From an uncultured Latescibacterota bacterium (GTDB lineage: Bacteria; Latescibacterota; UBA2968): a DNA stretch of 64,000 bases. A program made the translations under genes and the position numbers. The notes beneath the pieces are model-generated. The model was not told where the DNA came from. It did no database searches and saw only the letters and a list, made by a program, of their open reading frames with translations. The stretch is taken from contig OX638329.1 of NCBI GenBank assembly GCA_951812755.1, positions 5,605,563 through 5,669,562 on the forward strand, given 5' to 3'. Of this stretch, positions 21,665-46,293 are shown piece by piece (the first letter of the stretch is position 1; each line of letters begins with the position of its first letter).

Positions 21665-21694
21665 AAAAAGCCCAATCCTATAGCGGATTGAGCC
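21665..21694 (-). terminator. Riboswitch expression-platform terminator
   Basis: On the minus strand GCTCAATCC pairs with GGATTGGGC across a short loop and is followed by TTTTTT. It begins inside the last conserved aptamer segment, so ligand binding and terminator folding would exclude each other. Confidence 0.85.
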
Positions 21695-21772
21695 CAGGCG
21701 ATCGACCCCTTGAATTTTAGTTCTAACGCTCCCTTCCGGTTATTTCCGGATATTCGCCAGTTGCGTCAGATA
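21692..21772 (-). promoter_or_regulatory. ZTP (pfl) riboswitch
   Basis: The minus strand carries the conserved ZTP-aptamer parts in order: GACGCAACTGGCG (ACTGGCG at 21761-21755), a hairpin TCCGG...CCGGA, GGGAGCG at 21733-21727, a linker, and CGCCTGGGC at 21700-21692. The last segment overlaps the terminator stem. ZTP riboswitches sense ZMP/ZTP, the substrate that builds up when 10-formyl-THF is short, and turn on purH-type genes. The gene below is exactly that enzyme. Confidence 0.88.
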
Positions 21773-21786
21773 ATATTAGTAAAACC

Positions 21787-34237: not shown

Positions 34238-35026
34238 ATGCACACCAGATTATTTTTTTTATTGGCACTGTTCCTTACTGCCTGTATAGGTCCGTTAGAC
34301 CCGAACAATTCCGAATACATTGAAATACGAGAAGTAACCGTTGGCCCAGCTCTGGCCAGATGCTACGGCGTTGGCGAACAGACCTGCATGATAGTTGACG
34401 GTTCATTTTTCTACGACAGCATAGAGGGCTTCAACTTCGAAGCGGGCTACAACTATCGTCTGCGGATCGGCAAATACGACCCCTATGATGGAGAAGAACC
34501 CCCGCAGGATGCTGGCCAATACAGTTATCGCCTGCTCGAACAAATAGAAAAAACCCGCGCCCCATCCACTCCTGCAACCTTATCCGTGGGACCGACGCGG
34601 GTAAAATGCGCACAAATCGACGACTTTTGCCTGCTGATCAACAGTACGCCAATCGACGATATAATCACCAACTTTGATTACGAAGCCGGGTATCACTATA
34701 CCCTCAATGCAAACCAATATAGCGATGGCCGATACGTATTGACTGAAATAGTCTCAAAAACCGAAGTGACAGGCACAGAAGAAGAAATAACCGTGGGACC
34801 ACACAGAACCCCCTGCGACGACAACGCCTCCGTGTACTGCAACGTCGTCAATGGCGAAGCCTTCCGCAGTGAAATCGTGAACTTCCAGCCCCGGCACAAC
34901 TACAGCTACCGTCTGCGAGCAGAGCGATTCAACATGTTTACCAATAACACAACCCCGCCGTCACCCAACATCCCAACCTACGGCTATCGCTGGCTGGAAA
35001 CACTCGAGCAGAGCTCCAATAATTAA
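34238..35026 (+). CDS. Lipoprotein with three DUF4377-like repeats
   Basis: A 262-residue lipoprotein: signal LFFLLALFLTAC, then three tandem units beginning VGPALARCYGVGEQTC, VGPTRVKCAQIDDFC and VGPHRTPCDDNASVYC, each with a Cys pair and ending in a tyrosine-rich YNYRLRI, YHYTLNA or YSYRLRA strand. DUF4377 usually occurs once. The AAAAGGAGTGAACCA before ATG is a good ribosome site. It converges on btuC with overlapping stops. Function unknown. Confidence 0.72.
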   Translation: MHTRLFFLLALFLTACIGPLDPNNSEYIEIREVTVGPALARCYGVGEQTCMIVDGSFFYDSIEGFNFEAGYNYRLRIGKYDPYDGEEPPQDAGQYSYRLLEQIEKTRAPSTPATLSVGPTRVKCAQIDDFCLLINSTPIDDIITNFDYEAGYHYTLNANQYSDGRYVLTEIVSKTEVTGTEEEITVGPHRTPCDDNASVYCNVVNGEAFRSEIVNFQPRHNYSYRLRAERFNMFTNNTTPPSPNIPTYGYRWLETLEQSSNN

Positions 35027-36090
35027 AACGCCTGACTCAAATTTTTGCGATATAAAATAAACCAGATCACAATCGGCGCGCCGATCAGGGATGTCACTGC
35101 ATTCAGCGGCAAAACAAATTGACTCCCCGGCAGATGGGCAATCAGATCGGATAGCAGTGCCAGCGTCGCCCCCAGGCAAGTGACCGCAGGCATAAGCACG
35201 CGATGATCAGACGTATGCAACAGACTGCGACAAAGATGGGGCACAGCCAGCCCCAAAAACGCAATCGGACCGCAAAAAGCAGTCGTCGCGCCCGCCAGAA
35301 CTGACGCACTGATCAAAATCCACAAGCGAATACGCTTGACATTCAGACCCATACTGCGCGCATAATTTTCCCCGAGCAACAGCGCATTGAGCGGTTTGAT
35401 ACACAAAAACGCCAGCAAAAGCCCGAGGGAAATAGCACAGAAAAGCACGGGCATCTGCCGCCAGGTCACACTCCCAAAACTGCCAAAAGTCCACAAAATA
35501 TACGACTGAATCTGTTCGGGAACGCTAAAATAAATCAAAATACTGACAAAAGCCCCGGTCGCATACCCAAACATCAGACCCAAAATCAGCAACGTCATCA
35601 CACTCTGCACACTGCGAGACACCAACAACACGCACCCCAGCACAGCGGCAGCACCTATAATAGCCGCAACAGCCAAACTCAAATCGCCCAGAAAACCCAT
35701 CCCGGCGATAAGCACACTACCAACCGCACCCACTGTCAGCACCACAATAGCAACACCAAGACTCGCGCCGGCACTGATACCCAGCACAAAAGGATCTGCC
35801 AGCGGATTGCGAAAAAGCGTTTGCATCTGCAACCCACTCACAGAAAGCGCCGCACCTGCCAGCACAGCGGTAATCGCCTTGGGCAGTCGAATCGTATGAA
35901 CAATAATCGCCCATGCCGGAGAAGACACTTCTTCGCCCGTAAGAACACCAAACAAACCCGCCAATGGAATATGAACCGACCCCAGCGACAGACTCAAACC
36001 GAACGCAATCAGGAACAAGAAAAATAACCCCAGCATAATAACCGCATGCCGCGGCCCCTCCCGCGCTTCATCATTGTATTGAGCCTCCAT
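35023..36090 (-). CDS. btuC: Vitamin B12/iron-siderophore ABC permease (BtuC/FecCD)
   Basis: A 355-residue membrane permease with about ten spans. The start at 36090 has AAAGGA at good distance; an ATG 9 bp upstream is too close to that site. The FecCD marks are GAALSVSGLQMQTLFRNPLA, DPFVLGISAGASLG and GPIAFLGLAVPHLCR. Context (BtuF, BtuB-like receptor, CobO, CbiZ, CbiB on the same strand) points to cobamide uptake. Confidence 0.85.
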   Translation of the reverse strand: MEAQYNDEAREGPRHAVIMLGLFFLFLIAFGLSLSLGSVHIPLAGLFGVLTGEEVSSPAWAIIVHTIRLPKAITAVLAGAALSVSGLQMQTLFRNPLADPFVLGISAGASLGVAIVVLTVGAVGSVLIAGMGFLGDLSLAVAAIIGAAAVLGCVLLVSRSVQSVMTLLILGLMFGYATGAFVSILIYFSVPEQIQSYILWTFGSFGSVTWRQMPVLFCAISLGLLLAFLCIKPLNALLLGENYARSMGLNVKRIRLWILISASVLAGATTAFCGPIAFLGLAVPHLCRSLLHTSDHRVLMPAVTCLGATLALLSDLIAHLPGSQFVLPLNAVTSLIGAPIVIWFILYRKNLSQAF

Positions 36091-36155
36091 CCCGACCATC
36101 CTTTTATCCTATTTTAGACAGGAATTTTCATCCGCATCCATCTGTTCATCGGTGT

Positions 36156-37157
36156 TCATCGGTGGTTGCTTTTCAGTGCCGCAATCAAATCGGCAATCGA
36201 ATCGCATTCCCGAACCACGCCACCGCGCTCAACACACCAGACCCCGTCCTCCCGAATAACGACACGCCACCTGGATCCCGCATCTCCCACTCGAAACCCG
36301 GCTCTCTCCAGCGCGCGCTTTGTCCAATACGCGCGTCGCCCCTCCCCAGAAACAGCAACTGAGGTGCGACCGCGTTGTGCATTGAGCTTAAACGCACCCG
36401 TATCCGCGTCAAAACGCACGCCCTCACTCTGAAACGCACCTTCAAATGCACCATTGAGAATTAAATCCTCGGGCGCACCGGTCTGCAACGCGCCCTCAAA
36501 CGGCAAAAGATAGATACGATCTGCACAGCGCAACGCCAGATCCAGATCGTGCGTTGAAAGCAGAATCGCCTTACCCGTAGAATGAGCCAGATCTTGCAAC
36601 AAAGCCATAATTTCAGCGCGGCGGGGCAGATCGAGAAAAGCCGTAGGTTCATCCAAAATCATAAGATCGGGCTGCTGCGCCAGCGCGCGTGCAATCATAA
36701 CCTTTTGACGCTCGCCATCGCTGAGTTCGGCCACATTGCGATATGCCAGATCCTCAGCACGGGCCGCTCGAATAGCCCATGAAACAACCCGTTCATCTTC
36801 CTCTGTAAAGCGCCCGATCCAATCCGTATGGGGATATCGCCCCAAGCCCACCAAATCGCGCACAGCCATAATACCAACACTCATGCGATCCGTAAGCACC
36901 ACGCTGATCACCTGGGCAACCTCTATAGCAGACATATCCGCGATATCCCGACCCATAAGATAAACATGGCCATCAAGCGGTGGCTGCATCCCCACAAGCG
37001 TGCGAATAAGCGTGGATTTGCCTGCGCCATTGGGGCCCAGCAAACACACAAACTCACCGCGATGGAGCGATACATCTATATCGCGGGCCACAACGCGAGG
37101 CGGACGACGGCCGTGTTTATAACCCACAGCGAGATCTTGTGTTTTGAAAATCGCCAT
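36156..37157 (-). CDS. btuD: B12/siderophore ABC ATPase with C-terminal extension (BtuD)
   Basis: A 333-residue ATPase. Walker A is GPNGAGKST at 41-49, signature LSDGERQKVMIARA, Walker B LMILDEPTAFLD, switch LSTHDLDLAL. Residues beyond about 255 are an extra domain of roughly 80 residues (YWTKRALERAGFRVG, WRVVIREDG) of unknown role. It precedes btuC by 65 bp. A possible terminator at 37173-37229 separates it from the upstream genes. Confidence 0.85.
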   Translation of the reverse strand: MAIFKTQDLAVGYKHGRRPPRVVARDIDVSLHRGEFVCLLGPNGAGKSTLIRTLVGMQPPLDGHVYLMGRDIADMSAIEVAQVISVVLTDRMSVGIMAVRDLVGLGRYPHTDWIGRFTEEDERVVSWAIRAARAEDLAYRNVAELSDGERQKVMIARALAQQPDLMILDEPTAFLDLPRRAEIMALLQDLAHSTGKAILLSTHDLDLALRCADRIYLLPFEGALQTGAPEDLILNGAFEGAFQSEGVRFDADTGAFKLNAQRGRTSVAVSGEGRRAYWTKRALERAGFRVGDAGSRWRVVIREDGVWCVERGGVVRECDSIADLIAALKSNHR

Positions 37158-37242: not shown

Positions 37243-38826
37243 CTATTTCGTCAGCAACATCTTGCGCGTGACCACATCTGTCCCGGCTTGCAGGCGATAC
37301 ACATACATACCCGTACTGACCTGAAGCCCAGCAGCGTCACGCCCATCCCACACGACCGTATAATTTCCCGCGGACTGGAATTGCTGCACCAGCAACCGAA
37401 CTTCCTGACCCAGTACATTGTAAATAGCCAATCGTACATTCACTGCTTCGCCCAGAGAATAGCGAATAGTAGTTGCTGGATTAAACGGATTGGGATGGTT
37501 CTGATCCAATGAAGCCGCAAAAGGATTAATAAAGCGCACATCACCGTTCAAATCAATCTCATAAGTCACGCGGCTTCCGGGCATGAGTGGAATACTGAAC
37601 CACCTCGCAATGGTCGCACCATCTGTCGAACGCACGCGCGCCTGATACATCCCATTTACACTCCTCTGGCCATCCGCCGTCACCCTCACCACCGCACGAC
37701 CCATCTCATCTGTCGTATTATGCCACGCATAATTGGGCACGCGACCGGCAATCGAGCGAGAAACCTCCACTGTCAAACCACTCACATCGCCATCGCCTAC
37801 CACCTGTACATCCACCAGACCGGCATCATTGACCGCCGTATCGGAATCCAGATAAATACCAGCACCTACGACAAAGTCCTGACCAAATATATTAAAAGGA
37901 ATCGCGTAGGTCAGCTTGGGCGATTGGGTATCTTCATCTCCATCTACCGCAGGATTGTCCCAATAATACTCGACAAAACCACCGCCCTTTGTCGCGGTCG
38001 CGATGATCTCCTGCACAATTTTGAGGCCATTGACATCTTCGAGATCAATCAAATTTTGCCCATCTAGGCTCGGGTCAGCCCCGTGAAAAATCACTACACC
38101 ATCAGTACTTATCACAAAAATGTAGATCGAATCGTACTTGAAATCCTCACCCTCGGTCCTGATTGCACCCTGGACGGTTGCCAGGTAGGGATAACCCTTT
38201 TCCTCAATAATAGGAATGAGAACTCTCAACCCCTCTACAAAGGCTTTCAGAGTTTCCCTATCCTTCACATCACGGGCTGTTACCTCTAAAATCTCAAAGA
38301 TATTTGGCTCGGCATCAACGCCGGACAGATCCATATAAAAGCCAGCGGTTAAGACAAACTCCAGGCCGCGTATAGTAACCGGGACAGCGTAGGTCAGCTT
38401 GGGCGAATCGGTGTCTTCTTCCAACGACGGATCATCCCAATAATACTCGACAAAACCGCCTCCTCCAGTCGCTGCAGCGAGCATCTCCTGGACAACCTTG
38501 ACGCCCCTCGCATCTTCGAGATCAAGTACGTTTTTGTCCTCAAATGTCACATCGGCCCCGTGAAATTGTACAAGACCTTCTGGAGTCAATATCACGAGGT
38601 ATATCGAACCGGCCCTCCAATCTCCCTCACTCCTGAATACCTCCACTAATCTTGAGACCTCAGCGAAATTAGAAGCGCTCTCTAAAGAATCCTTTGCCCC
38701 TTCTACAAAAGCTTTCAGAGTCTCCCGATCCACCACCTCACTCGCCGTTACCTCCTGACCCTGTACAACGGCGGGATGCCCAGCAAAAAAGAGACTGGCC
38801 AGCCCTAAAATTATTAAATATTTCAC
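37243..38826 (-). CDS. Secreted double-Cache protein with type IX-style C-terminal sorting domain
   Basis: A 527-residue protein, GTG start after GAGAGG. A signal peptide (YLIILGLASLFFAG) precedes two similar Cache-type sensor units of about 150 residues each; hallmarks GGGFVEYYWDDPS and GGGFVEYYWDNPA, each followed by SPKLTYAVP or SPKLTYAIP. A beta domain follows, then a FlgD-like ending from about 440: DQNHPNPFNPATTIRYSL, NVLGQEVRLLV, STGMYVYRLQAG, TRKMLLTK. There is no membrane anchor and no output domain, so the Cache units bind a ligand outside the cell. Confidence 0.82.
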   Translation of the reverse strand: MKYLIILGLASLFFAGHPAVVQGQEVTASEVVDRETLKAFVEGAKDSLESASNFAEVSRLVEVFRSEGDWRAGSIYLVILTPEGLVQFHGADVTFEDKNVLDLEDARGVKVVQEMLAAATGGGGFVEYYWDDPSLEEDTDSPKLTYAVPVTIRGLEFVLTAGFYMDLSGVDAEPNIFEILEVTARDVKDRETLKAFVEGLRVLIPIIEEKGYPYLATVQGAIRTEGEDFKYDSIYIFVISTDGVVIFHGADPSLDGQNLIDLEDVNGLKIVQEIIATATKGGGFVEYYWDNPAVDGDEDTQSPKLTYAIPFNIFGQDFVVGAGIYLDSDTAVNDAGLVDVQVVGDGDVSGLTVEVSRSIAGRVPNYAWHNTTDEMGRAVVRVTADGQRSVNGMYQARVRSTDGATIARWFSIPLMPGSRVTYEIDLNGDVRFINPFAASLDQNHPNPFNPATTIRYSLGEAVNVRLAIYNVLGQEVRLLVQQFQSAGNYTVVWDGRDAAGLQVSTGMYVYRLQAGTDVVTRKMLLTK

Positions 38827-38887: not shown

Positions 38888-39853
38888 TCAGAAAGTCAAT
38901 AAAACCGCCAGCCCTGTCGCGAGCAAACAGGTGACAATCACAAAAACACACATACGGCGCATATCCCCGGGCTGACCGCCCTCTGGATCATCCCCATCAC
39001 CCAACCACACATCTGTAATCTGCATTCCCCCCTGCCAAACAGGACCGACCAATCGCCTCTGCAAAGCACCTGCAGCCGTAGCTTCGCTCCACCCGGAATT
39101 TGGCCCTGGAACAAGCGCGTGTTGTCGCCACCCGATAAGCAATGCCTTGCGCGCGGAACATCTGGGCATAAAAAACGCCACAAGCACCATCCCCAAATAC
39201 GTCAAACGCGCGGGAATAAAATTGAGCACATCGTCCAGCCGCGCCCCGCACCAGCCAAAATAGTGGTATTGCGGCGTCCTAAACCCCACCATAGAATCCA
39301 TCGTACTGACCACCTTAAAAAGCACAACACCCGGCAACCCCAGTATAGCGTACCAAAAAATCGGCGAAACAAAACCATCCACAGCATTCTCGCTCAAACT
39401 CTCCATACCCGCACGCCGGCAAGCCGCAAAATCCATCACATCCGTATCGCGTCCCACAAGCATAGACGCAGCCTCTCTCGCACGCTCCAGATCAGCAGCG
39501 CGATCAATCGCCAACCCGTGCTTGCACAAATCTTTGAGCGCAAGCATACTGTACAAAACGAAAACCTGAAAAATCCAACCCACCTCAGATTGGACATAAT
39601 GCAACACACAAGCCAATACACAAACAACACCCACCCAAAACACAGACAGCAACAAAAACAGCAAACACCCCCCTGCATAACCATCCAAACGCAGACCGCG
39701 AAGCATTCGCTCAAAAAAAGACAGCGTCGCACCCATCAAACGAATGGGATGCAACGCATAAACCGGATCGCCAAAAAGACCATCCAAAACAACCGCACAA
39801 AGGAGCAAAACCGGATCCGGCTCGAGAATTTTCACGTCCATTTCAAACGCCAT
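38888..39853 (-). CDS. cbiB: Adenosylcobinamide-phosphate synthase CbiB/CobD
   Basis: A 321-residue membrane enzyme that attaches aminopropanol phosphate to adenosylcobyric acid. Marks are DGLFGDPVYALHPIRLMG, ESLSENAVDGFVSPIFWY, STMDSMVGFRTPQYHYFG and PGPNSGWSEATAAGAL. A second ATG at 39841 is as likely a start. It overlaps cbiZ by 22 bp, so the two are coupled. Confidence 0.9.
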   Translation of the reverse strand: MAFEMDVKILEPDPVLLLCAVVLDGLFGDPVYALHPIRLMGATLSFFERMLRGLRLDGYAGGCLLFLLLSVFWVGVVCVLACVLHYVQSEVGWIFQVFVLYSMLALKDLCKHGLAIDRAADLERAREAASMLVGRDTDVMDFAACRRAGMESLSENAVDGFVSPIFWYAILGLPGVVLFKVVSTMDSMVGFRTPQYHYFGWCGARLDDVLNFIPARLTYLGMVLVAFFMPRCSARKALLIGWRQHALVPGPNSGWSEATAAGALQRRLVGPVWQGGMQITDVWLGDGDDPEGGQPGDMRRMCVFVIVTCLLATGLAVLLTF

Positions 39854-40950
39854 CCAAGCGCAAGTGCATCGTAAACGACCTCCAAAAATGCGTTTTCATC
39901 CACGCGCAACTGCTCGTAACACGACAACCAAACATCTGGCCTCGCCGCCAGCGAAGTCGCCAATACCGCTGCCTGCTGCCGCAACACCGGATCGGCCATT
40001 GCAGGTGAAAGCGTCCCATACCGCACGCGATCCCAAACCGCTGCAAATGCATACGCTGCCGCCGAAACGCTCGGTTCGTAAACAACAGACTTGAGATTCT
40101 TCTCTAACAGCGCAAAATCATCCGCTTTCAGCCGTTTCTCCATCGCCTGCAAAAATCGACCCTCGCTAAATCCAAACCGCTTCAACGCATGAAAAACACT
40201 TCGCGTATGCGACGCCTCCAAACCGTTTTGCCATCGCAGTGCCTCCAGCGTGGCTCTGCGCACAGACTTGCCGATCAACTCGCCCAATTTTGCGTGATGC
40301 CCCACATTGGTCTTAGGCACCCTCATCTTATCCAGAGGCGCGACAATACAGTACTGATCTGTACCCGTACCCGTTGCGAGATCCTGAGAATAGCGACTCG
40401 AAATAGCGAGATCTCGAAGCGCGGCAGACTTCCCCTCGGTCATCGTCACCACCGCCCGCGCCATCGCCCCTGGCGTAAGCGGCCAATTGATAAACACCAT
40501 CGCATTGATCGTACCCTCATATAGATGGCGCCATCCAGCATCCTCTTCGTGCCAACTCGCCTCATCGCCCGCACACCCCGCATTGCCCTCAACACCCGCG
40601 GTAACAACCGCACACACGCGCAACTCGGCATGCGTATCCACAACGCGAGCCGCATAATTCATATTCGCAGCCGTACCCATCAGTGCAACCGCGTCTGGCG
40701 GCAAGCCGCGTTCTCCGCATACATGGCGATGATACCCCACCTCGCCGAGTTGTTTAATCAACGCAAAACGCGCATCGTGCCCATTGCCCTCACAACTCTG
40801 GTGATTCACCAGATACCGGACATCCTCGCACAAACCACCGCAATATGCCGACGTACTCAGCACCTGATGCGGCACCAGCAATTCCGCGATCAGAAAACGA
40901 CCATCGCGCTTTAAATCGTAATATTCATGCTGATCGATAAACTCATCCAT
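39832..40950 (-). CDS. cbiZ: Adenosylcobinamide amidohydrolase CbiZ, long form
   Basis: About 372 residues. The first 230 match CbiZ: LVNHQSCEGNGHDARF, ALMGTAANMNYA, VVTAGVEGNAGCAGDEASW, GTINAMVFINWPLT and GTGTDQYCIVAP. CbiZ removes the aminopropanol tail from salvaged cobamides so they can be rebuilt with the cell's own lower ligand. The extra 150 residues at the C-terminus are not part of the usual enzyme. The start one base after the cobO stop (40950) is taken. Confidence 0.88.
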   Translation of the reverse strand: MDEFIDQHEYYDLKRDGRFLIAELLVPHQVLSTSAYCGGLCEDVRYLVNHQSCEGNGHDARFALIKQLGEVGYHRHVCGERGLPPDAVALMGTAANMNYAARVVDTHAELRVCAVVTAGVEGNAGCAGDEASWHEEDAGWRHLYEGTINAMVFINWPLTPGAMARAVVTMTEGKSAALRDLAISSRYSQDLATGTGTDQYCIVAPLDKMRVPKTNVGHHAKLGELIGKSVRRATLEALRWQNGLEASHTRSVFHALKRFGFSEGRFLQAMEKRLKADDFALLEKNLKSVVYEPSVSAAAYAFAAVWDRVRYGTLSPAMADPVLRQQAAVLATSLAARPDVWLSCYEQLRVDENAFLEVVYDALALGWRLKWT

Positions 40951-40951
40951 C

Positions 40952-41512
40952 TCAAAAATCAACCCCCGGTTGAGCAACAATATCCTGGTCACTAAACGGA
41001 TGCTTAATCTCGCGCATCTCGGTCACCATATCGGCAAAATCAACCAACTCATCTGGCGCGTCCCGTCCCGTAATAATCACATGCAACATCTCGGGCTTGT
41101 GCTCCCGCAACCACGCCACCACCTCGGTTGCATCCAACCAGCCAAAAGCCATCAAATACGTAAACTCATCCAGAATAAACAGATCGTAATTCCCGCTAAC
41201 AATCCGCTCCTGCGCCACTTCCCAACCGCGCAATGCCCGAGCCTGCGTCTCATCTATATCCTTACTCGTCCACGTCCACCCATCGCCCGTACCAATCCAA
41301 TCGATCTCCATGCGCCTGGCCGCACGAATCTCGCCAAAATTGGCATTCTCATGCTTCAAAAACTGAATCACACCCACGCGCATCTTGCGCCCCCATGCGC
41401 GTGTCATCACCCCAAGCGCAGCCGTAGTTTTACCTTTACCATCTCCGGTATTGACCATCACCAGCCCCTTTTTCACATGCCGCTTGCGTTCTGTCTCTTT
41501 TCTGGCACTCAT
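40952..41512 (-). CDS. cobO: Cob(I)alamin adenosyltransferase CobO/BtuR
   Basis: A 186-residue P-loop adenosyltransferase. Walker A is [13 protein letters not shown] at 22-34; later marks are [31 protein letters not shown] and [10 protein letters not shown]. It adds the adenosyl group to reduced corrinoids. It precedes cbiZ by one base. Confidence 0.9.
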
Positions 41513-41578: not shown

Positions 41579-42811
41579 TCATTCACCTTCAAATTCCGAA
41601 ACAAAAATCAGAAAATCGGGAAAATCAATCGAACCGTTGCCATCCAAATCGAACATCGCATCATTCGCTGATTTCCCAAACGCGGAAGCAAAAGCCAAAA
41701 AATCGCTAAAATCAACCACACAATCGCCATTAAAATCGGCCACACTGCCCACAAATGCAATACTCGCGGGCGGCAGTCCTGTACTGATCGGACCGGCCAT
41801 AAGCTCATCCGTCTTCACGTCATAAACCCGCACCCCCGCCGATGTCGGATCCACAAAACTCCCGCCATCCAAAACGTACAACCGTCCGCCAAACACCCCC
41901 AGGCTCGGCACAAATCCGCCTGAAAGACCACTCAAACCCGACGATACAGACTGCATCCCCAAACCGAACCGTTTAACGGCATTGACAAAACTCGCATTCA
42001 GAACAACGACATACCCCTCATCATCTGACACCATCGCCAGAGAACTCAGATTGCCGCCCAGCGCCATCTCGCCAATAACAACGCCTTCGCTCCTCAAATT
42101 TGCCAGATCAATCACCTCAATCCCGCCATCCGTCAGATCACCAAACGTATTGACCGCGCTCAAAAACCACTTACTCCCCCGCTGCACTGCGCCCGCGGGG
42201 TTCTTACTCGCCATCACAATCCCCTGCACACCCGCTGTATTTGCATCCACATCCACCACCTGATCCGTCATCACATCAACAACCGCAATCACCGAAACAT
42301 CCGTCGGCACAAATCCATTATCTCGATCCAGCCGTTGACACGCAACAAACAAATGATTGCCATACAACGCGAGTTGAGATATTTCGGGCAAACCATCCGC
42401 ATCCGCAAATCCCGATAAATCCACCGCGCCTAATGAATCGCCTGTAACGGGATTTACAATCAACACTTGCACGCGCTCATACCGCGAAATATACGCTTTC
42501 TCCTCACTGACAAAAGCCATATCGTGCGGATTCGAACCATTGCCCGTCGAATACTGCATCAACGGCATCTTCAGATCACTGCGGCTTAAAACAATCACAT
42601 TATCCTGCCCCAGACGATTGAGAATATACACCTTATCCCGATACGTCCGCACCACCGCATCCGAGTGAATAATCAGATGATCACGCGTTGCCGTATTTGT
42701 GTTGAGATCCAAACTCGAAAAACTACCACTGCTATAATCCGTTGTCGTAATAACCGCTTGATTTGCCAGTGCTTCCGATGCAAAAAACAGAACAACTAAA
42801 AACCACCTCAT
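41579..42811 (-). CDS. Secreted beta-propeller protein with dockerin-like tail (BtuG-like)
   Basis: A 410-residue exported protein. The start at 42811 follows AGGAGGAGG and gives MRWFLVVLFFASEALA. Residues 20-350 read as a YncE/DUF5074-like propeller (YRDKVYILNRLGQDNVIVL, GSNPHDMAFVSEEKAYISRY, QLALYGNHLFVACQRLD). Two EF-hand repeats end it: DFNGDCVVDFSDFLAF at 359 and DLDGNGSIDFPDFLIF at 388. It lies directly after the BtuB-like receptor in a riboswitch-led operon. Bacteroides BtuG, a cobalamin-binding surface propeller partner of BtuB, has the same fold and position; the equivalence is inference. Confidence 0.75.
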   Translation of the reverse strand: MRWFLVVLFFASEALANQAVITTTDYSSGSFSSLDLNTNTATRDHLIIHSDAVVRTYRDKVYILNRLGQDNVIVLSRSDLKMPLMQYSTGNGSNPHDMAFVSEEKAYISRYERVQVLIVNPVTGDSLGAVDLSGFADADGLPEISQLALYGNHLFVACQRLDRDNGFVPTDVSVIAVVDVMTDQVVDVDANTAGVQGIVMASKNPAGAVQRGSKWFLSAVNTFGDLTDGGIEVIDLANLRSEGVVIGEMALGGNLSSLAMVSDDEGYVVVLNASFVNAVKRFGLGMQSVSSGLSGLSGGFVPSLGVFGGRLYVLDGGSFVDPTSAGVRVYDVKTDELMAGPISTGLPPASIAFVGSVADFNGDCVVDFSDFLAFASAFGKSANDAMFDLDGNGSIDFPDFLIFVSEFEGE

Positions 42812-42850
42812 TACATCCTCCTCCTGTGATAAAAAGAACCTTTCATCCAC

Positions 42851-45046
42851 CTAATCCGCATTCACACGCACAAAAAACGCGCGTCCCGGCAGCGGATAAC
42901 CCCAGGTATCGGCAATTTGTGCCCCGGTTAAATTTTTAACCTCCAATCCAATGTGAAACCGCAGCCCTGTATCTACCTTCACACCCGCATTGTGAACATG
43001 CCGCGATAATAGCGGGCGTCGATTTGCCTGATCGAGAAAATTTCCATCTTCAAACGCATAGTCGTAAAACACAGCACATCGCCCCAGGCGCATCGTCGCA
43101 CGAACAAACAGCGCGTGGGGCGGGCGATTGGGCAAAATATTGCCATTCAAATGGGGAATCTCGGACTTATCTGTGGCTTTTTGATACGTGTAATTACCCG
43201 ACAAATCGACCCGAGAACCAAAGCGTCTCTGCGCGGTCATTTCAACCCCATACACACGCGCCTTGCCGATATTCACCGGACGCGACGTAGCCTGTGACGT
43301 GTGAACAAACTGGATCAAATCCTCATAGCCATGGTCAAAAAACGCGCCTTCCAAAGTGGTCGTCCCATCTGCATAACGCAGACCCGCATCCCATGTGAGA
43401 CCATACTCCGGCCGGAGATTGACATTGCCGACCACACCGCCGCGATCACCAAAAAGTTCGTAAAAAGAGGGCACTCGAAATACGCGCCCCGCATTGGCCT
43501 TAAACATCAGATGGGATGTCAGATCCAACCGCATACCCGAGCGCAGACTGGTGAGATCGCGCGTATTGGCCGAATCGGGCGCGAGCGGCGAAAAATTAAA
43601 AGGATTGGCACCCGTAAACGAACTGTATATCCGCCGTTGCTCCGCTCCAAAAGACCAGATACCGACCTCACCCGGCAGTGAAATATCCACACCTGTGCGT
43701 GCGGAAAAAATCCACCGCTGACTATCGAACAAATTGGCGATAGACCGGACGCGCGTCGTGGGCAAATAAGTCTCCCGGTGCAAACCGATCGCAGCCGCGA
43801 TATCACAGCGCGAAAACAAAACCGTTTGCAAACGGCCCTGCCACCCATAAGTGCGCGTGAGATAATCGTTATCCTGGCGACCAATCCCGATTTCACCATC
43901 CAAATCGCGGAACCGCTCTTTGACATGCGTGACATAAAGCGATTGCCGCGTATTCACGCCCCGCAACAGAACGCGATCTTCATAAGCGACCTCCGTCATC
44001 GTCTGGAAAGCGTCCAAATGTGCATTCTGCGACTGATTATTGCTAATACCTGGCATGCCCTGATATTTCCAGTGCGCGGTCTCGTGGATGGATAAAATTC
44101 TATCCTCCCCAAAAGCGCGACGCCATTTGCCCAACAAATTGAAAGATCGATGATCGTTATTCTGACGCCTGCTCCAAACATCGTCACTGTCATTGTATTC
44201 AGTCCCATTATCATCGAGAAATGCAAAATCGTTATCGCTATGTGCATAATCAGCCACAACGAGAAACTCCGACAGCCCAAACCCACCCGCGAACACACCA
44301 CTCAGCAACCGCGTATCAAAAGCACCCCACGATCCTCGAATCCCGTGAAACCATCGCCTCTGCGTCCGTCGCGTGCGCACATGCACCGTGCCACCCAGTC
44401 CATTGCCGCCAGCACCTGCACCGCGATACACCTCAATCTGCCCGACGTGAGCCAAAGGCAAATTGCTGAGATCTACCCCCCCGCCAAAAGCGGTATTTAG
44501 TAAAATGCCATCGAGATAAATCTCAACCTGATCCGCTGATGAACCCCGCAATGAAAGCGTACTAAAAGTACCCAATCCACCCAGGCGTTTGACGTTTACC
44601 CCCGTGACCTCAGCCAATACATCTGGCAACGTCGTTTCTCTACCCTCAAAACTCTCGCGCGTAATAACCGTCGCATACGCCGGATTCCTGTGAATATCAC
44701 TGGCCCCGATCGGATCGGCAATCACCGAGAACTCATCGAGGGAAAGCGTCCTATGAGACAGCGCAATAAACACCTCAGCCGTATCGGCCACATGAACCGT
44801 GCGCCGCACCTCATCGTAAGCCACATGTGTTATGGCAAGCGTATAAGAACCGGGCATCAGATCAAAAAAAACAAAGCGCCCGCTCTCATCTGTCTGCGTC
44901 ACAAAATCCGTATTGAGCATGCGAACACGCACACTTGCGATGGGCATTCGGCTCTCCGCATCAGTAACGCGACCAACAATCTCCGCTCCCCAAAGCGGCG
45001 TATTCGCGCAAAGAATCAAAAAAATTAAAAAACGCATCATTTTCAT
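42851..45046 (-). CDS. btuB: TonB-dependent cobalamin receptor (BtuB-like)
   Basis: A 731-residue outer-membrane receptor: signal (FLIFLILCANTPLWGA), carboxypeptidase-like domain (IVGRVTDAESRMPIASVRV), plug (LGTFSTLSLRGSSADQVEIY, IEVYRGAGAGGNGLGGT) and barrel ending FFVRVNAD. The C-terminal residue is Asp, not the typical Phe. Placement between BtuF and CobO under a B12 riboswitch supports cobalamin as substrate. The gap to btuF is 3 bp. Confidence 0.86.
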   Translation of the reverse strand: MKMMRFLIFLILCANTPLWGAEIVGRVTDAESRMPIASVRVRMLNTDFVTQTDESGRFVFFDLMPGSYTLAITHVAYDEVRRTVHVADTAEVFIALSHRTLSLDEFSVIADPIGASDIHRNPAYATVITRESFEGRETTLPDVLAEVTGVNVKRLGGLGTFSTLSLRGSSADQVEIYLDGILLNTAFGGGVDLSNLPLAHVGQIEVYRGAGAGGNGLGGTVHVRTRRTQRRWFHGIRGSWGAFDTRLLSGVFAGGFGLSEFLVVADYAHSDNDFAFLDDNGTEYNDSDDVWSRRQNNDHRSFNLLGKWRRAFGEDRILSIHETAHWKYQGMPGISNNQSQNAHLDAFQTMTEVAYEDRVLLRGVNTRQSLYVTHVKERFRDLDGEIGIGRQDNDYLTRTYGWQGRLQTVLFSRCDIAAAIGLHRETYLPTTRVRSIANLFDSQRWIFSARTGVDISLPGEVGIWSFGAEQRRIYSSFTGANPFNFSPLAPDSANTRDLTSLRSGMRLDLTSHLMFKANAGRVFRVPSFYELFGDRGGVVGNVNLRPEYGLTWDAGLRYADGTTTLEGAFFDHGYEDLIQFVHTSQATSRPVNIGKARVYGVEMTAQRRFGSRVDLSGNYTYQKATDKSEIPHLNGNILPNRPPHALFVRATMRLGRCAVFYDYAFEDGNFLDQANRRPLLSRHVHNAGVKVDTGLRFHIGLEVKNLTGAQIADTWGYPLPGRAFFVRVNAD

Positions 45047-45049
45047 AAG

Positions 45050-46162
45050 CTATGGATCGAGCTTTCGATAATACTTGAGTTGATGGTCTAACAACAAATC
45101 GGGATGTAGAATTTTAATAATATCAGCCAACACAACATCTGGCTCAATAAGCCCCGTTTCCCAATAATCATTGCCCCCGTGCGCATTGAGACGCGCATTG
45201 GCATTGAAAACACTCCCGGTCTCAAACGCCGTGAATTTTTTGTAACGCGCATCCTCGGCGACAACATCGTTTCGAGAGTACCACTCATTTCTCATCGTGA
45301 TCCAGCAATCCGCATCGTACGCCTTTTCGTAAACCGTCTCAAAATCGAGCGCCAAACTCTGCCGTGAATCATCATCTGCCCACAGATAATTTGCACCTGC
45401 ATCCCTCAACAACTGCGCGGCATAAGTTTTTCCGCCAGACATAAACCAGGTGCCGCGCCAGAGAGACCCCACAACAACAGTGGGACGCTTATCTGCCGGC
45501 AAATTCTGGACCAACGCCCTACGCGCCTCGTACCTCACAACAATGCTATCAAATTGGGCCGATGCCAGTTCTTCTTTCTGAAAAAAATTACCCACAAATT
45601 TGATCCACTCCACGCGCCCCAGCAAAGAAGATTCCGCATAAGCAGTATTCACCACAACGGGCACACCCGCTTCTTGAAGCGCGAGAAGGGCATTATCCTG
45701 CGCTTGCGAATCTGTAATAACGAGATCGGGTTGAAGCACCAGAACTCTTTCCAAATCAATAGACCTATCTCGCCCAACTTCGACCAACTCACCCGCCGCA
45801 AAGCGCCGGTTGACAGCCTCTGAATTGACATATTTGATATTATCAATCCCAATCAGACTGTGAACCTCACCGAGCTTTTCGATATGTGGCAGATGCGTCG
45901 TGGATGTCGTAATCACAGTCCGCACGGGAATTTCTATTCTCGGAACGCCTTCATAGCCATCGGGCGACTCGTGCCCGCGCTGCACCAGGATATACTGAAA
46001 CTTTTTTTGTATTCCATTCCCGGACACTGTTACAACCCTGTACGCATCGAAATAATCAACGCTAAAACCCTGTGCATATTGCAAAGACAACTGCGCCTGA
46101 GCAGGTATGGCCCAAACCCCGATACAAAATATCATCTGTATCCATATTTTTAGATTCAACAC
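45050..46162 (-). CDS. btuF: Periplasmic cobalamin-binding protein (BtuF-like)
   Basis: About 370 residues. The start is GTG 46162 or TTG 46159, just after GAGG; the upstream part of the open frame runs through the terminator and is rejected. A signal (MIFCIGVWAIPAQAQ) is followed by the class III binding protein fold: TSTTHLPHIEKLGEVHSLIGI, LQPDLVITDSQAQDNALLAL, PTVVVGSLWRGTWFMSGGKT and ending LHPDLLLDHQLKYYRKL. First gene after the B12 riboswitch. Confidence 0.85.
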   Translation of the reverse strand: MLNLKIWIQMIFCIGVWAIPAQAQLSLQYAQGFSVDYFDAYRVVTVSGNGIQKKFQYILVQRGHESPDGYEGVPRIEIPVRTVITTSTTHLPHIEKLGEVHSLIGIDNIKYVNSEAVNRRFAAGELVEVGRDRSIDLERVLVLQPDLVITDSQAQDNALLALQEAGVPVVVNTAYAESSLLGRVEWIKFVGNFFQKEELASAQFDSIVVRYEARRALVQNLPADKRPTVVVGSLWRGTWFMSGGKTYAAQLLRDAGANYLWADDDSRQSLALDFETVYEKAYDADCWITMRNEWYSRNDVVAEDARYKKFTAFETGSVFNANARLNAHGGNDYWETGLIEPDVVLADIIKILHPDLLLDHQLKYYRKLDP

Positions 46163-46177
46163 ACACCTCGCTTTCCC

Positions 46178-46212
46178 AAAAAAAATCCCCGATTTCCTTG
46201 TAGAAATCAGGG
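46178..46212 (-). terminator. Riboswitch-linked terminator before btuF
   Basis: On the minus strand CCCTGATTTC pairs with GAAATCGGGG over a short loop, followed by A and eight T. It lies between the B12 riboswitch and the btuF start, as expected for control by transcription termination. Confidence 0.85.
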
Positions 46213-46293
46213 ACATAGTTGTACGCGACAAAACCACAGGACCGAAGCGCACGCATTATCTCACCTTTTTCCCAATCCACGAGGAAATCAATA

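Follow-up and report, generated by a model that had tools for sequence, protein, structure and literature searches.

We find that the gene at positions 41579–42811 (minus strand) of the window, i.e. the whole stretch of 64,000 nucleotides analysed here, probably encodes a BtuG-like corrinoid-binding propeller, which would act together with the BtuB-like receptor of the preceding gene. The best reading is that of a non-lipidated variant within a broad family of BtuB-linked propellers; we do not file it as BtuG proper, because the sequence threshold and the lipidation were both tested and neither applies to this protein. The host is a Candidatus Latescibacterota, a phylum of its own within the FCB group according to the NCBI taxonomy, so that the finding lies outside Bacteroidota, as the first-pass annotation of this DNA had proposed. 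The nearest named relative, a Candidatus Latescibacterota MAG, has a propeller 91% identical; several close relatives are labelled Gemmatimonadota, yet belong to the same genus or order by their kinship codes.

The gene stands in an operon headed by a cobalamin riboswitch (RF00174, 46291–46461, minus strand, 114.4 bits for a gathering threshold of 31.5), which a genome scan found in a single copy in the whole 6.53 Mb single-contig genome. There follow, all on the minus strand, the genes for a BtuF-like periplasmic corrinoid-binding protein (45050–46252, Peripla_BP_2 at 1.5e-28), the BtuB-like TonB-dependent receptor (42851–45046), the propeller, the corrinoid adenosyltransferase CobA (40952–41512, TIGR00708 above cut-off), the adenosylcobinamide amidohydrolase CbiZ (39832–40992, 2.5e-53), an enzyme of corrinoid remodelling, the adenosylcobinamide-phosphate synthase CbiB/CobD (38888–39853, TIGR00380 above cut-off), a secreted protein that combines two Cache domains with a T9SS type A tail (37243–38826), a BtuD-like ABC ATPase (36156–37157) and a BtuC-like permease (35023–36099), the last three assigned by Pfam and NCBIfam models. 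In this B12-riboswitch operon the gene order thus places the propeller directly behind the receptor. Order-level relatives (L063 and L064, 71–72%) share the Cache protein of the operon, which was not seen in the genus mates L059–L061; it is possibly a further surface ligand-binder. Elsewhere in the window, a ZMP/ZTP riboswitch (RF01750, 55 bits) lies at 21685–21774 on the minus strand.

CbiC, an enzyme of corrin-ring synthesis, was not found in the genome, which is 99.6% complete; two proteins with a B12-binding domain are present, and the B12 operon contains uptake and salvage genes only. From these three observations corrinoid salvage is probably obligatory, and this Latescibacterota organism probably depends on B12 uptake.

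The receptor has a TonB plug, a barrel and an N-terminal carboxypeptidase-regulatory domain. Its top NCBIfam model is that of the B12 receptor, TIGR01779, at 131 bits, the equivalog cut-off of 600 being far above; in the PDB it matches BtuB of E. coli (3e-17) and BtuB1-3 of B. theta (1e-14 to 1e-16), the top match overall being a different receptor, 9gbc. The BtuB-like assignment, already made in the first-pass annotation, agrees with the riboswitch and the operon setting, and we keep it.

The listed reading frame of the propeller starts at a GTG (42850). An alternative ATG at 42811, 39 bases past the TAG stop of the receptor, is preceded at 5 bases by a ribosome binding site, AGGAGGAGG (42817–42825, minus strand), and opens a signal peptide, so that the protein most likely has 410 residues counted from this ATG. 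It is laid out as a Sec signal peptide region (MRWFLVVLFFASEALAN, 42761–42811, minus strand; residues 2–14 form a helix in the structural model), a seven-bladed propeller and a dockerin-like tail. The signal region, as read, has no cysteine, and a lipobox is absent.

The AlphaFold2 model of the propeller, made from an alignment of 35 sequences, has a pLDDT of 89.9 and a pTM of 0.86, and its strand order gives seven blades, a C-terminal strand closing the ring. In a Foldseek search of the PDB the ranks 1 to 15 are all BtuG chains (7.0e-18 to 3.5e-14, best TM 0.82 on the target); the first other matches are an archaeal YVTN propeller (5.1e-14), XusB (4.6e-11) and YncE of E. coli (3.4e-10). A profile of 36 family members compared with PDB sequences likewise places nine BtuG sequences on top (9e-14 to 6e-13), the first protein of another kind being the WD40 propeller WDR5 at 4e-6. 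The likeness to BtuG in fold, proposed beforehand, is thereby strengthened; of the label “YncE-type propeller” the seven-bladed propeller stands, and “YncE-type” is loose, the structure of YncE being much less similar to the model than that of BtuG. Pfam and NCBIfam have no model that matches the propeller, even at E = 1, and DUF5074 (PF16819), a candidate model for BtuG, is absent from the genome.

The case for BtuG likeness rests on profile and fold, since the sequence identity between the propeller and BtuG is only about 17%. BtuG genes were collected by a BlastP cut-off of 1e-10, divergent genes being also accepted by structure match (PMC6143338). Against BtuG1-3 the E value stays here above that limit: a single-sequence phmmer search gives BtuG first, at 1.7e-4, and the reverse, tblastn-type search, with 222 residues of B. 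theta BtuG3 as query, has the propeller gene as its sole match in the genome, at 2.4e-5.

In BtuG2 the cobalamin lies in the central cavity, and one face of the protein is strikingly negative (PMC6143338, PMC10404256). We assigned the blades from the AlphaFold2 model and the loops to the faces ourselves, with the alignment already seen; on this assignment, conservation is higher in the DA/BC loops, on the binding face, than in the AB/CD loops (mean Jensen-Shannon 0.505 versus 0.424, Mann-Whitney p = 0.0013), and the former are more acidic (mean net charge -12 versus -5). Blades 1–4, which make the hydrogen bonds in BtuG2, show no higher conservation than blades 5–7 (0.509 versus 0.497). The loop conservation thus speaks for a conserved functional face, without confirming the precise contacts of BtuG2. 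Modelling of the complex, suggested in the first-pass annotation, was feasible with a fused protein because the frame of the receptor continues past a single TAG codon, which we read as glutamine, into the propeller; in this AlphaFold2 model both domains fold well and the docking is not confident (pTM 0.59), the rows being unpaired and the fusion an artificial one that leaves from the periplasmic end of the receptor. It neither supports nor refutes a contact between the two proteins, and none of our conclusions depends on it.

The survey of other genomes used samples weighted towards the kin of the window, in which a single-sequence search detected the propeller in 60 of 147 genomes and a profile search in 108 of 386; neighbourhoods were read in the loci L039–L198, duplicates being removed before counting. 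Among assessable homologues of at least 300 bits, 94 of 99 lie at most 900 bp from a BtuB-like receptor gene of the same strand, which is directly upstream in 91 cases; such an adjacent receptor accompanies 4 of 10 homologues at 100–300 bits and 20 of 26 below 100 bits. With only some 16 TonB receptors in the genome, such a neighbour would be expected by chance in about 1% of cases. The receptor profile was built from the surveyed loci and may accept other TonB receptors, so that the riboswitch serves as an independent check: it was found at 64 of the 75 scanned loci, or 62 of 73 after dropping two duplicates. Only five scanned loci show neither riboswitch nor receptor, and one of these (L173) ends at a contig edge. 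Genes for BtuFCD, CobA, CbiZ or CbiB lie near many of the propellers. A propeller occurring mostly away from B12 genes, which the first-pass annotation had named as the observation that would speak against its proposal, is thus not what the genomes display.

Several loci depart from the common arrangement. Six have the propeller and a cobalamin riboswitch without an adjacent same-strand BtuB-like receptor (L174, L175, L180, L186, L191 and L122), and in two others (L171, L056) a tandem pair of propellers lies downstream of one BtuB. In a family of the same phylum (f6, loci L045 and L047) there is a second propeller, a lipidated paralogue; the same stretch contains a BtuB-like receptor, and no riboswitch was found there. 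This paralogue may serve another ligand.

By record title the hosts belong to Latescibacterota, Krumholzibacteriota, Eiseniibacteriota, Fermentibacterota, Myxococcota and Thermodesulfobacteriota, with one MAG labelled Pseudomonadota; such MAG labels can err. The receptor-propeller pair is conserved in at least five phyla besides Latescibacterota, which answers the earlier proposal that the pair be followed across phyla.

The attachment of these propellers is interchangeable: it relies on a T9SS tail, a lipobox or a dockerin-like tail. Among 118 distinct family members of at least 100 bits, classed by sequence patterns, the T9SS type A tail is the commonest (54), followed by a lipobox alone (24) and the dockerin-like tail (17); three members have two patterns and 20 none. 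The lipobox pattern occurs in 3 of 77 tailed and 24 of 41 untailed proteins (Fisher p = 4e-11), so that the two kinds of anchor, lipobox and C-terminal tail, seldom occur together. Parsimony on a 96-member tree counts at least nine changes of anchor, a rough figure given the quick search, the long branches and some labels set by eye. The dockerin form was seen, among strong homologues, only in the window's part of Latescibacterota, and T9SS tails occur in sister families of the same class.

In the window the tail (41579–41746, minus strand) is a double EF-hand, ADFNGDCVVDFSDF...FDLDGNGSIDFPDF, with two calcium-binding-like DxNxD...D motifs. It just passes the cut-off of EF-hand_1 (25.9 for 25.4) and falls short of that of Dockerin_1 (20.3 for 22.9), so that “dockerin-like” is a fair label as far as motifs and domain scores tell. 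The module recurs about 115 times elsewhere in the genome (e.g. loci L002–L008), either at the C-terminus of a protein or just after its signal peptide; from this number of copies it is a general module of the lineage. We considered a tail specific to B12 uptake, and dropped this idea in view of the copies elsewhere; a tail acting by itself as a C-terminal sorting signal was also dropped, since the module comes right behind the signal peptides of other proteins. The first-pass annotation saw a dockerin tail in place of a lipid anchor: the missing lipobox and the dockerin-like motifs stand, the dockerin assignment stays below its curated cut-off, and the replacement is not particular to B12.

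A six-frame search of the genome gave four cohesin-like matches above the Pfam cut-off, three of them immediately before T9SS tails; genome positions 762742–763107 and 768954–769307 hold cohesin-like domains. In two proteins of 1517 and 2056 residues (757500–773000 of the contig; L219), weak cohesin-like stretches immediately precede a T9SS tail; cohesin was not listed at 1e-3 when these proteins were scanned whole. Such stretches are possibly a surface scaffold, which we give as a lead only. The genome likely encodes a T9SS, since it has a PorU-type C25 peptidase of 1904 residues and some 15 T9SS tails.

How far do these data favour a surface partner of BtuB over other roles? The propeller might be a YVTN-type protein that joined B12 loci in a separate recruitment, and resemble BtuG by analogy instead of homology. 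The low identity of 17% goes in this direction, as does the readiness with which propellers are recruited, XusB being another propeller on a TonB receptor. We nevertheless hold this for unlikely, because in both profile and fold every BtuG structure outranks the other propellers by several orders of magnitude, and because the order of receptor and propeller genes is identical to that of BtuG. That the protein serves another ligand, siderophore or haem, or has a structural role, the riboswitch context being incidental, is much harder to defend: XusB and AztD-like propellers do bind different ligands, but they come lower in the Foldseek list, and the cobalamin riboswitch recurs at 62 of 73 distinct loci, with B12 transport and salvage genes around many, and even at the six loci deprived of an adjacent same-strand receptor. 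We regard this explanation as highly improbable.

The place of action is another matter. The propeller could bind corrinoids and pass them from BtuB to BtuF within the periplasm instead of acting as a surface lid: its Sec signal is a plain one, it has no T9SS tail, the dockerin-like module found behind signal peptides elsewhere is no C-terminal export signal in itself, and the lipoproteins of Myxococcota are not necessarily on the outer surface. Against this, 54 of the 118 distinct strong homologues, sister families of the same class included, carry the T9SS type A tail, a cell-surface address; besides, BtuF of the operon already has the periplasmic role, and BtuG itself is a surface protein. 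A periplasmic relay appears to us somewhat less plausible still than an independent recruitment, and we retain, as the likelier reading, a BtuG-like propeller working with BtuB at the surface.

For such a propeller the following path may be proposed. Once exported from the cell, the protein would stay on the outer surface through its dockerin-like tail, which would replace the lipid; its acidic conserved face might catch cobamides and hand them to BtuB, after which BtuF-BtuCD would import them, and CobA, CbiZ and CbiB would adenosylate and remodel them.

BtuG was described as exclusive to Bacteroidetes (PMC6143338), which was explained by competition in the dense gut. Our literature search, which covered few subscription journals, returned nothing relevant on BtuG, or on a propeller plus BtuB, outside Bacteroidota. 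The occurrence of the pair in several environmental phyla implies that the lid strategy predates the gut or is independent of it, and that dedicated binders probably serve B12 scavenging in many uncultured lineages. Going further is tentative: the lid propeller of BtuB could be a general and old mode of B12 uptake across many Gram-negative phyla, not an invention of gut Bacteroides, and the means of keeping the lid at the surface would have been exchanged many times; here a dockerin-like module would hold the lid without a covalent bond, and cells could share or shed it. Three modes of anchoring on one propeller family are in any case a natural experiment on the role of the lipid anchor and of the hinge in lid function, and a family without Pfam or NCBIfam model is currently invisible to annotation.

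BtuG is known for its femtomolar binding of cobalamin. The propeller of the window shares with BtuG1-3 of Bacteroides (PDB 8BMX, 8OKV, 8PTD, 3DSM) the seven blades, the gene beside btuB, the cobalamin riboswitch and the acidic conserved face, these proteins being its top PDB matches by both sequence and fold. It differs by an identity of about 17%, by the absence of lipobox and lipoprotein export signal and by the phyla concerned; where Bacteroides BtuG is lipidated, we find a dockerin-like tail here and a T9SS tail in sister families. BtuB-BtuG form “pedal bin” complexes (PMC10404256), in which receptor and partner propeller are likewise encoded side by side. By analogy, BtuB and the propeller likely work as receptor and lid; the pair is known here from its genes, and anchoring by the tail could allow a different hinge.

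The tail resembles type I or GC-type dockerin domains by its tandem calcium-binding-like motifs, and departs from them by its score below the curated Dockerin_1 cut-off and by the N-terminal as well as C-terminal positions of the module. XusB, the xenosiderophore lipoprotein of Bacteroides fragilis, is also a propeller partner of a TonB-dependent receptor; unlike our propeller it binds ferrichrome, has no cobalamin riboswitch context and is the weaker fold match (4.6e-11). Finally, the DUF4465 proteins (BtuJ) are B12 binders found in eight clades (PMC13398666): like the propeller they are dedicated binders outside Bacteroides, often near B12 transport genes, but their fold is an unrelated jelly-roll.
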